Of a DNA stretch of 64,000 bases, positions 31,764-35,038 are shown piece by piece (the stretch's first letter is position 1; each line of letters opens with the position of its first letter). The stretch covers positions 2,790,001 through 2,854,000 of the forward strand of contig NZ_LT629781.1 of NCBI RefSeq assembly GCF_900105685.1, written 5' to 3'. The DNA comes from Verrucomicrobium sp. GAS474 (GTDB taxonomy: Bacteria > Verrucomicrobiota > Verrucomicrobiia > Methylacidiphilales > GAS474). Position numbers and translations under genes: made by a program. Below the pieces are notes generated by a model. That model had not been told where the DNA came from. It worked only from the letters and a program-made list of their open reading frames with translations, and made no database searches.

Positions 31764-32045
31764 ATGAGTTTGAATCGCGCAGAATTGGTCGCCCAGGTCC
31801 AGAAGGCCCTCGGCAAGGAAACCACGAAGGCCGCCGCTGAGCGCGCCGTCGAGGCCGTCATCGAAAGCATCAAGGTCGGGGTCAAGAAGTCGGGCGGCGT
31901 CCAGCTGATCGGTTTCGGCACCTTCAAGGTTGCCAATCGCAAGGCTCGCACGGGCATCAACCCGAAGACGGGCGAGAAGATCAAGATCAAGGCCTCCAAG
32001 ACGGTGAAGTTCTCCGTCGGCAGCGGCTTCAAGAAGAGCCTCTAG
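31764..32045 (+). CDS. hup: HU/IHF-family DNA-binding protein
   Basis: Small basic nucleoid protein of 93 residues that bends DNA as a dimer. The beta-arm region reads LIGFGTFKVANRKARTGINP, with the family's GFGTF and RxGxNPxTGE signatures, followed by IKIKASKTVKFSVG. An AAAAGGAG ribosome site is visible ten bases before the ATG. A strong terminator follows. HU versus IHF cannot be separated by eye; the sequence is HU-like. Confidence 0.95.
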   Translation: MSLNRAELVAQVQKALGKETTKAAAERAVEAVIESIKVGVKKSGGVQLIGFGTFKVANRKARTGINPKTGEKIKIKASKTVKFSVGSGFKKSL

Positions 32046-32188: not shown

Positions 32189-33340
32189 TTACGTCGCGCG
32201 CAGTTTTTCAGCGGCCTTGGAGACGATGGCGCAGGCGGCGGCGATCTCCTCCCCGGTCGTTCCCGCCCCGAGGGTGAAGAGGACATTGGAGCGGCTCCGC
32301 TCCGGCGGCAGCCCGAGGGCGGCGAGGACGTGGGAACTCCGCTCCTCGCGGCTCACGCAGAGCGCCCCGCTGGAGAGCGCGAGGCCCCGCATGTCGCAAA
32401 GGAGGACGAGGGCCTCGCCGTCGAGGCCGGGGATGCCGACGTTGAGATTGGCGGCGTTCCGCAGCGGCCCGGGCTCGGGACCGTTGAGGAGAAGGCCGGG
32501 GATTGTGGCGCGGAGGGTGTCGAGCAGGAGGCGTTGGCAGCGGCCCAGCGTTTCCTGCCGGGAGGGAAGGGCTGCGGTGACCTCGGCCGCGGCGGCCCCC
32601 ATGCCGACGATGGCGGGGAGATTCTCGGTCCCCGCGCGGAGGCCTCCCTCCTGTTCCCCGCCGTGGAGGAGCGGTTCCAGGGCGATTCCCCGACGGCGAT
32701 AGAGCGCCCCCGCGCCCTGCGGCCCGCCGAAGCGATGGGCGCTTAAGGAGAGGAGGGAGACCGGCGCGGCGGCCACGTCGATCGGGATCGAGCCCGCCGC
32801 CGCCCCGGCGTCGGTGAAGAAGGCAATGCTCCGCTCGGCGCAGCGGGAGGCGAGCTCGGCGATCGGCTCGATCGTTCCGATCTCGTGGTTCGCCCAATGG
32901 ACGGCGGCGAGGATCGTCCCGGCCCGGGCGGCGGCAAGGAAGGTGTCGGCGGAGAGAAGGCCTGCGGCATCGACGGGGACGAGGGTGACGGTGAAGCCTT
33001 CCCGCTCGAGGGCGGCCGCCGTGCGGAGGACGGCGCGATGTTCGGTCGCTCCGAGGAGGAGATGGGTTCCCTTGTCTCGATTGGCCCGGGCATAGCCGAG
33101 GAGGGCCAGGTTCACGCTCTCGGTGCCGGAGGCGGTGAAGACGATCTCCTCGGGCGAGGCGGCTCCGATCAGCGTTGCCACCTCGCGCCGCGCCAGGTCG
33201 AGGGCCTCGCGGGCCCGGACGCCTCCGCGATGGTGGCTCGCCGGGTTGGCCGGTTCGTTCAAAAAGGGAAGCATCGCCGCCCGGACCCCCTCGGAAAGGG
33301 GGGCTCCCGCCTGATGGTCGAGGAAGATATAGGGGGGCAT
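32189..33340 (-). CDS. Cysteine desulfurase-like class V aminotransferase with PLP lysine replaced by arginine
   Basis: A 383-residue NifS/IscS-type fold protein. Aligned to E. coli IscS with a constant offset of three, His101 (TEHRAV), Thr73 (SGTES), Asp177 and His202 are kept and the mobile-loop Cys328 is in SSGALCVS. The Schiff-base lysine (SGHK in IscS) is Arg203 in SAHRFGGPQG (codon CGC), and the PLP-contacting Gln of DATQ is Ala180 (TDAGA). PLP could still bind non-covalently, but normal desulfuration should fail. No iscU, suf or thiI gene is adjacent. It is divergent from an ECF sigma gene, 58 bases apart. Confidence 0.82.
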   Translation of the reverse strand: MPPYIFLDHQAGAPLSEGVRAAMLPFLNEPANPASHHRGGVRAREALDLARREVATLIGAASPEEIVFTASGTESVNLALLGYARANRDKGTHLLLGATEHRAVLRTAAALEREGFTVTLVPVDAAGLLSADTFLAAARAGTILAAVHWANHEIGTIEPIAELASRCAERSIAFFTDAGAAAGSIPIDVAAAPVSLLSLSAHRFGGPQGAGALYRRRGIALEPLLHGGEQEGGLRAGTENLPAIVGMGAAAAEVTAALPSRQETLGRCQRLLLDTLRATIPGLLLNGPEPGPLRNAANLNVGIPGLDGEALVLLCDMRGLALSSGALCVSREERSSHVLAALGLPPERSRSNVLFTLGAGTTGEEIAAACAIVSKAAEKLRAT

Positions 33341-33398: not shown

Positions 33399-34001
33399 AT
33401 GGAATTGACCGATCATCAGCTCATGGAGGCCGTCGCGAAGGGCGACGAGGGGGCCTTCCGGCTGCTGATGGAGCGGCACCAGCGCCTCGTCCACGGCACG
33501 GTGCTGCGGATGCTGGGCGATCCCTTCGAGGCGGAGGACGTGGCGCAGCGGGTCTTCGTCCGTGTCTGGCAGGCGGCCCCCCGCTACCGGCCCGAGGCGA
33601 AGTTCAACACCTGGCTCCTCACCATCGTCCGCCATCTGGTTTTCAACGAGAGCCGCCGCCTCTCCCGCCTCCGGACAGTCGAGACGAAGCTCTTCCAGCC
33701 GAGGGAAGGTGAGGAGGAGCCGTCGGAGCCCGATCTCTTCGACCCGAGGCAGCGCGATCCGGCGAGCCTCCTGGCGGGGAAGGAATTCCGTGGGAAGCTC
33801 GACCGCGCCATCGCCGCCCTTCCGGAGAACCAGCGGATGGCGATCCTGCTGAAGGCCCACGAGGATCTCCCCTACGAGGAGATTGCCGCCATCCTCGAAA
33901 CCTCCCTCGGCGCGACCAAGTCGCTCCTCTTCCGCGCCCGCGAAGCCCTGAAGGCTTCCCTGGGGGAGGCGGCGGGCGACCTCTTCGATGGGGCTTTTTG
34001 A
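33399..34001 (+). CDS. ECF-type RNA polymerase sigma factor (RpoE-like)
   Basis: A 200-residue sigma-70 family group 4 factor. Region 2 spans ~10–80 with DPFEAEDVAQRVFVRVWQ and FNTWLLTIVRHLVFNESRR (-10 recognition and melting). Region 4 spans ~130–190 with ALPENQRMAILLKAHEDLPY and IAAILETSLGATKSLLFRAR (-35 helix-turn-helix). The linker is acidic. It is followed 57 bases later by a single-pass membrane protein and a secreted protein, a typical envelope-stress sigma/anti-sigma/effector layout. Confidence 0.93.
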   Translation: MELTDHQLMEAVAKGDEGAFRLLMERHQRLVHGTVLRMLGDPFEAEDVAQRVFVRVWQAAPRYRPEAKFNTWLLTIVRHLVFNESRRLSRLRTVETKLFQPREGEEEPSEPDLFDPRQRDPASLLAGKEFRGKLDRAIAALPENQRMAILLKAHEDLPYEEIAAILETSLGATKSLLFRAREALKASLGEAAGDLFDGAF

Positions 34002-34058
34002 TCGAAACTTTTTGAGAAACAAGGTGTTTAATCGAAATAGACCGACGGCTTCAGCGCG

Positions 34059-34487
34059 ATGAAACGGCATTTCCTCTCTTTCCTGACCTCCTTCCTCTCC
34101 TCCCACCCCGGAGCGGTGGAACGGGATCCCGTGCCCCCGGCGCTCCTCGCCGCCATCCGCATTCGCGGAGGCGCGGCCACGCCCGAGCCCTCGGCCTGGT
34201 TCGCCACCTCGGTGCTCGCCCGCATCCGCCGGGAGGAGTCGGAGCAGGCCGAACGCCGGATGCGCCGCCAGCATTGGGCTCGCGTCCTGATCCCCTCCGG
34301 GTTGGTCGCGCTCTTCATTCTCCTCCTCGGCATCGGGGAGCATGCGAAGACGGTCTCGGAAGAGGATCAGGTCACCTTCGCCGCCCTCGACGCCATCGCG
34401 CAGGGAGGGAAGGGGACGGCCCAGGCCAATGTTGATGGGGCTTCCGTTCCGCTCGTCGTCGAAGGGGTTTCATGGTCCGCGCCCTGA
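34059..34487 (+). CDS. Putative anti-sigma factor, single-pass membrane protein
   Basis: A 142-residue protein with a basic cytosolic half of about 85 residues (many Arg, pattern RIRREESEQAERRMRRQHW), one helix near 87–105 (VLIPSGLVALFILLLGIG) and a ~40-residue external tail. No zinc-binding HxxxCxxC motif is present. The call rests on position directly after the ECF sigma gene and on topology, not on a recognised domain. Its end overlaps the next gene by 16 bases. Confidence 0.55.
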   Translation: MKRHFLSFLTSFLSSHPGAVERDPVPPALLAAIRIRGGAATPEPSAWFATSVLARIRREESEQAERRMRRQHWARVLIPSGLVALFILLLGIGEHAKTVSEEDQVTFAALDAIAQGGKGTAQANVDGASVPLVVEGVSWSAP

Positions 34488-35038
34488 TCGTCCTCCTTTC
34501 CCTCCTCTCGATCTACCCCCTCCTCGCGCAGGAACGGGTACAGGTCCAGGGCGGCGAGCTTCAGGAAGGAGGCCAGCCGCAGCAGCCTCCCGAAGTCCGG
34601 GAACGGATGGCCGAACTCCTCCTCCTGCCGAAGGACAAGCTCTGGAAGGAGCTCTCCAAGTGGCCGTCCTTCAAGAAGATGACCCTGGAAGAGCAGTCGG
34701 CCTTCCTGGGCCGGATGGCGGCGATGCGGAAGCAGACTGAGAAACGGGCCCTGGAGCATGCCGTGAAGATCGGCCTCGCCGTCCCCCCGGAGAAGCACGA
34801 CGCCTTCACCGACGACTACCTCCGGGAACGGCTCCGGCTCCACAAACGGTTCATCGCCGAGAAGAAAAAGGGGAAGAGCCCCGCGCCCGAGGCTTACGAC
34901 CGGGAACTCGACCGCCATCTCACGAAGAAATACGGTCCCGTCGTCGTCCCGAAAACCGACGCTAGCGGGCCTGCTCCGGAGCCGTCGGCACCGGTCCCGT
35001 CGGCTGCCCCGTCGAGTACCGCGCCAAAAACGCCGTGA
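34472..35038 (+). CDS. Secreted helical protein of the ECF operon
   Basis: A 188-residue exported protein: signal peptide MVRALIVLLSLLSIYPLLAQ, a Gln/Gly-rich linker, then ~120 residues of charged amphipathic helix (PPEVRERMAELLLLPKDKLW, MTLEEQSAFLGRMAAMRKQT) and a Pro/Ala/Ser-rich tail. The helical core recalls periplasmic DUF3106 or CpxP/Spy/ZraP-like proteins controlled by envelope stress, but I cannot assign a family. Its last 77 bases overlap the convergent hydrolase gene. Confidence 0.65.
   Translation: MVRALIVLLSLLSIYPLLAQERVQVQGGELQEGGQPQQPPEVRERMAELLLLPKDKLWKELSKWPSFKKMTLEEQSAFLGRMAAMRKQTEKRALEHAVKIGLAVPPEKHDAFTDDYLRERLRLHKRFIAEKKKGKSPAPEAYDRELDRHLTKKYGPVVVPKTDASGPAPEPSAPVPSAAPSSTAPKTP

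Follow-up and report, generated by a model that had tools for sequence, protein, structure and literature searches.

Cysteine desulfurases such as E. coli IscS, Azotobacter NifS, and human NFS1 keep the active-site lysine, glutamine, and arginine and are active enzymes. In Archaeoglobus fulgidus IscS (AfIscS, or IscS2; PDB 4eb5, 4eb7, 4hvk, and 4r5f D199K), activity is reported to be absent since an aspartate replaces the lysine, and the protein is reported to give a cysteine ligand to a [2Fe-2S] cluster on the scaffold IscU (PMC7585200, PMC9769115). The archaeal Methanosarcina acetivorans IscS1, also reported to have no catalytic lysine, has been proposed to act in the same way (PMC7585200). 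The minimal IscS-IscU system (MIS; MisS and MisU) pairs IscS with IscU, in some bacteria close to Rrf2 (PMC9973013, PMC12442378), and has been described as containing a desulfurase (PMC12192291). Here we analyze a lysine-less member of this fold encoded in Verrucomicrobium sp. GAS474, within a stretch of 64,000 nucleotides (contig NZ_LT629781.1, positions 2,790,001 to 2,854,000, forward strand; hereafter the window). We propose that the protein is an AfIscS-type pseudo-desulfurase, a cysteine donor that would act as a cluster ligand or persulfide site rather than as a desulfurase and that would have outlived its scaffold IscU. We infer this function, and regard the proposal as about evenly balanced between right and wrong.

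Active-site residues of the encoded protein

The gene and the codons on which the argument turns are as follows.

32189..33340, minus strand: lysine-less IscS/NifS-fold protein, 383 residues (open reading frame, domain matches, AlphaFold model)
32732..32734, minus strand: codon 203, CGC (Arg), aligned with the lysine that forms the Schiff base with pyridoxal phosphate (PLP) (codon reading and alignment)
32801..32803, minus strand: codon 180 (Ala), aligned with the PLP-contacting glutamine, E. coli Gln183 (alignment)
32279..32281, minus strand: codon 354 (Leu), aligned with the substrate-carboxylate arginine, E. coli Arg354 (alignment)
32357..32359, minus strand: codon 328 (Cys), the persulfide or ligand cysteine of the mobile loop, kept (alignment)
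32810..32812, minus strand: codon 177 (Asp), kept; in desulfurases it pairs with the PLP pyridine nitrogen (alignment)

The open reading frame (ORF) begins with ATG and runs through 383 codons without an internal stop. Its product is a single full-length Aminotran_5 / NifS-IscS homologue with the class V aminotransferase fold, nearest to NifS/IscS; the match to Pfam PF00266 scores 180.5 bits, and fold type I extends over the full length. Scores fall well below the NCBIfam cut-offs for NifS (TIGR03402, 332 against 531) and IscS (TIGR02006, 278 against 643), whereas a paralogue, L003, exceeds the NifS cut-off (544.5). An AlphaFold model built from an alignment of 42 sequences predicts an intact fold, with a mean predicted local distance difference score (pLDDT) of 94.1 and a predicted template-modelling score (pTM) of 0.92. 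In comparison with PDB structures the model gave template-modelling scores (TM-scores) of 0.92–0.95 across IscS and NFS1, including 0.94 for human NFS1 and 0.92–0.93 for AfIscS. The loop that carries Cys328, a feature shared with AfIscS and with the active desulfurases, has the lowest confidence in the model.

Four other desulfurase homologues in the same genome, two of the NifS/IscS type and two of the SufS type, carry the lysine; identity to intact paralogues is 37–44%. Alignment with the intact paralogues places Arg203 on the lysine of the '(A/G)HK' motif, Ala180 on the glutamine of 'DAVQ', and Cys328 on the loop cysteine, and the codon itself reads 'tcc tta agc gcc cat CGC ttc' (CGC at 32734-32732). 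An earlier note on this DNA had reported these two substitutions and the retained cysteine, and the codon reading and alignment bear it out. It overlooked a third change, in which Leu354 replaces the arginine of the motif S-x-R-F/L. Thr73, His101, Asp177, His202, and Cys328 are all retained.

The protein thus has the fold and loop cysteine of a cysteine desulfurase and lacks the Schiff-base lysine, the PLP-contacting glutamine, and the substrate arginine. Judged by these residues, it falls outside the definition of that enzyme and fits the pattern of AfIscS in all but the IscU partner. AfIscS (4eb5) has D, A, and L at the same three positions. The two proteins differ in that the window protein has arginine rather than aspartate at the lysine position, and they are ~36% identical.

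The earlier note also suggested a role other than desulfuration. Support comes from E. coli IscS, in which K206A, Q183E, and H104Q each abolish desulfurase activity (PMC9978102), and from AfIscS, which has the same three losses and is reported to be inactive (PMC7585200). In the mechanism that we propose, the IscS dimer fold and mobile cysteine loop would be kept while the internal aldimine would not form and L-cysteine would not be held as a substrate; sulfur would therefore probably not be released from cysteine.

The lysine-less clade and its constraint

A profile search over 384 genomes of the class returned a high-scoring group that spans many families, and active-site residues were read in ~70 of its members. 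We compared 75 distinct lysine-less homologues, nine of them from other phyla, with 79 lysine-bearing homologues. Cys328 is present in every sequence of both sets (75/75 and 79/79), and Asp177 in all 75 lysine-less sequences. Glutamine at position 180 is found in none of the lysine-less proteins and in 76 of the 79 lysine-bearing ones, the other three of which have alanine; arginine at position 354 is found in 5/75 and 76/79, respectively. Loss of lysine, glutamine, and substrate arginine together with retention of the cysteine characterizes 70 of the 75 lysine-less homologues. Orthologues from the same genus (71% and 63% identity) also have arginine at 203, so that neither a sequencing error nor a lone pseudogene can account for the change.

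Whether the arginine and alanine would be conserved in relatives was a question that the earlier note had posed, and the answer divides. Glutamine is consistently missing and arginine is usual at 203, but histidine, glutamine, and glycine also occur there within the lineage, and one family (f19) has lysine. Because position 203 is this variable, a special role for the arginine itself is not warranted. The f19 members (L121, L122, L132) read 'SPHKFYGPKG' at this site, lie inside the arginine clade, and still have neither the glutamine nor the substrate arginine; they offer a natural test of whether lysine alone restores anything.

A quick tree unites the class members in one clade, fully supported by the Shimodaira–Hasegawa-like approximate likelihood-ratio test (SH-aLRT). 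The paralogue L002 from the window's genome groups in this tree with a Verrucomicrobia record, which makes Verrucomicrobiota the most likely phylum of the host. Beyond the class, lysine-less homologues occur in Chloroflexota, Nitrospirota, Acidobacteriota, Aminicenantota, a Smithella, and a Bathyarchaeote; a scan of genome contigs returned mostly canonical IscS and no member of the window protein's own clade. Taken together, the sequences indicate that the lysine-less clade is an old, widespread bacterial family. AfIscS falls among archaeal canonical IscS in the quick tree, which would suggest that the lysine was lost separately there and in the bacterial clade. The approximately unbiased (AU) test, however, leaves a single clade of all lysine-less rows unrejected (p 0.51) and so does not support that claim.

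Lysine-less IscS has been reported from a few archaea (AfIscS and M. acetivorans IscS1) and might pass for an oddity, whereas the bacterial clade described here is widespread and has a conserved operon, and a literature search of partial coverage found no description of lysine-less IscS in these bacteria. The label 'IscS' or 'cysteine desulfurase' in an iron-sulfur (Fe-S) operon therefore does not guarantee that the sulfur derives from cysteine. Automatic annotation through Aminotran_5 or NifS similarity likely labels all members of the clade desulfurases.

The earlier note had favored selection over drift, and this view is supported: the arginine, the missing glutamine, and the kept cysteine are common to an old clade, and the ratio of nonsynonymous to synonymous substitution rates (dN/dS) within the genus is 0.27–0.38, against 0.19–0.50 for two intact paralogues. 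The gene is under purifying selection with Cys328 retained. These data bear on the idea that the gene no longer has a function and is slowly decaying as a remnant of an ISC operon. The loss of IscU, the dispersal of the operon, the loss of a C-terminal tail, and a variable PLP site in families f1 and f8 all favor this idea, but the frame is open in three species at 63–71% identity, the dN/dS values resemble those of intact paralogues, and Cys328 is invariant along with 56 other positions across the f1 and f8 rows. Neither a broken frame nor relaxed selection, the marks of a pseudogene, was found, and we consider this explanation improbable.

Within the genus, His101 is replaced by arginine in G002, and His202 by arginine or tyrosine, while Cys328 is constant across the three species. 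With the cysteine fixed and PLP-site residues varying around it, the cysteine, not PLP, looks to be the constrained feature. This pattern also counts against a different reaction, with or without PLP, in which the cofactor would be held non-covalently and Arg203 would act as a polar or phosphate contact. Most contacts to the PLP phosphate and ring do remain in the window copy (Thr73, His101, Asp177, His202), E. coli IscS K206A has not lost all PLP binding (PMC9978102), and PLP is present in the A. fulgidus structure (PMC9769115). Set against this are the substitutions of both histidines in the genus and, in f8, further erosion of the site to glycine or glutamine at 203 with the cysteine kept, so that such a reaction seems to us very unlikely.

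Ancestral neighborhood and the loss of IscU

In most IscU-bearing relatives the gene belongs to a cluster in the order Rrf2, IscU, lysine-less IscS, and Mrp/ApbC, with Rrf2 upstream, and IscU or Mrp adjoins the lysine-less gene in many families. The partner IscU retains three cysteines and the CGD motif. Counting as strong only NifU_N matches with E below 1e-40, we find IscU in 33 of the 384 genomes, all 33 of which carry a clade member (31 read by residue; G183 and G198 by score only). Weaker matches, at about 1e-20 to 1e-33, are taken from their scores to be probably SufU-like. The nine lysine-less loci from other phyla all have an IscU gene just downstream, ~0.9 kb away in one of them. The earlier note was right that the window gene is divergent from an ECF sigma gene and outside any isc or suf operon, but this setting misleads, given the Rrf2-IscU-Mrp cluster of so many relatives.

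The likeness to AfIscS thus extends to pairing with IscU among the relatives, and the ancestral cluster likewise resembles MIS in its IscS-IscU pair and Rrf2. The cluster differs from MIS in that its 'desulfurase' lacks the catalytic residues, that Mrp is often adjacent, and that the window copy has no IscU; were such clusters counted as MIS, the description of MIS as containing a desulfurase would fail for them. It differs from the AfIscS setting in that Mrp/ApbC is among the relatives' neighbors and that in the window genome, which has no IscU, the gene stands alone.

No NifU_N domain was detected in the window's genome, while 12 of 14 control genomes were positive. The same-genus genome G001 has none either, and a single weaker match occurs in G002, which is fragmented. 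IscU has been lost in only some lineages, the window's genus among them. A C-terminal tail of ~35 residues ('MSPMW-EF...IDSVI...GKSF..HAA..SGK') is conserved in most IscU-associated proteins and absent from the window protein and from every IscU-less lineage read. It is present in 28 of 30 proteins with IscU, counting the GQSF form, and in 0 of 40 without. Strong as these raw counts are, they represent one to four independent pairs, and a tracking of tail loss with IscU loss is not significant on the tree.

Mrp still adjoins the lysine-less gene in 13 IscU-less relatives. In families f2, f6, f9, and f18 (L141, L142, L143, L148, L154), a small ORF and then pyrimidine genes (pyrR-like, pyrB, and often pyrC and carA) come after the lysine-less IscS-Mrp pair. 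In f8, a membrane protein without a Pfam match adjoins the gene in place of Fe-S genes, joined in two of three cases by a PAP2 phosphatase (L145 10271-11068 and 8268-9035, with related neighbors in L144 and L146). Two of the three f8 proteins have RG or NQ at positions 202-203 and keep the cysteine.

Proposed role and flanking genes

We propose that the ancestral protein and the scaffold IscU acted as a pair under Rrf2 control, together with the cluster carrier Mrp/ApbC. Cys328 would have provided a thiol ligand, or a station for persulfide, during the building of iron-sulfur clusters, and sulfide or another desulfurase would have supplied the sulfur. The window's genus has lost both IscU and the tail linked to it, and there the protein would have been kept for Cys328. 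Its present docking would most likely be to another Fe-S or sulfur-handling partner encoded elsewhere in the genome, where SufB/SufD and Mrp are found, such as SUF parts or Mrp. The residue changes, the invariant cysteine, the ancestral gene order, the missing IscU, the predicted intact fold, and the purifying selection come directly from the analysis; the loss of desulfurase activity, the ligand or relay role of the cysteine, and the present partner are inferred from them.

Several observations weigh against this proposal. Since the AfIscS mechanism cannot work as described without IscU, the present role is an extrapolation, and no Fe-S gene lies beside the lysine-less gene in the window's genus. 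Trace desulfurase activity is conceivable, since E. coli K206A retained some PLP and a very slow turnover may persist in it (PMC9978102); and because f19 has lysine at 203, some members of the clade could bind PLP covalently. The variation among PLP-site residues within the genus, with His101 and His202 both replaced, suggests relaxed constraint at that site.

The genome's other desulfurases bear on two further explanations. That at least one intact enzyme would be present was a check set by the earlier note, and the four lysine-bearing homologues answer it. Any of these could load Cys328, which in that case would accept a persulfide and hand it on as SufE, SufU, or TusA do; the invariance of the persulfide-loop cysteine, in contrast to the PLP residues, is consistent with such a carrier. 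The genome, however, already encodes a SufE (G000:C1:586336-586692), so that another carrier is at hand and the idea of a substitute for a missing SufE or SufU is weakened. IscS-fold proteins normally donate persulfide rather than accept it, and we know of no persulfide acceptor of this fold. We therefore rate a persulfide carrier as unlikely.

The same paralogues could instead be partners of a regulatory or structural subunit, which would pair with an intact desulfurase as a heterodimer, or compete for its partners, and so tune sulfur flow. The IscS fold is an obligate dimer, and intact paralogues are there to pair with. At 37–44% identity, though, a mixed dimer is unlikely, the invariant Cys328 is left unexplained, and in the ancestral setting it is IscU and Mrp, rather than another desulfurase, that partner the protein; this explanation carries little probability.

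Returning to the cysteine donor that outlived IscU, we suggest more tentatively, as a possibility that we think doubtful, that in IscU-less lineages the IscS fold was freed first from PLP chemistry and then from IscU. It would there form a PLP-independent thiol platform working with Mrp/ApbC or SUF parts in Fe-S assembly or sulfur handling. If true, this would be a function of the IscS fold of which we found no description. Lineages with IscU, with only Mrp adjacent, and with neither provide natural comparisons for roles of IscS beyond persulfide making.

Two genes flank the lysine-less gene in the window.

33399..34001, plus strand: extracytoplasmic function (ECF) sigma-factor gene, divergent, 58 bp from the lysine-less gene
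31764..32045, plus strand: gene for an HU/IHF-like DNA-binding protein, convergent with the lysine-less gene at its 3' end

Both neighbors recur in G001, and the ECF sigma neighbor is absent in other families. In G001 the ECF sigma gene and the lysine-less gene are separated by a YebC/TACO1 gene (L138 8492-9241), which is absent from that position in the window. On the plus strand at 33399-35038, the ECF sigma gene is followed by ORFs of 142 and then 188 amino acids, neither with a Pfam match; the product of the first has a likely membrane helix and appears anti-sigma-like, and that of the second has a signal-like start.
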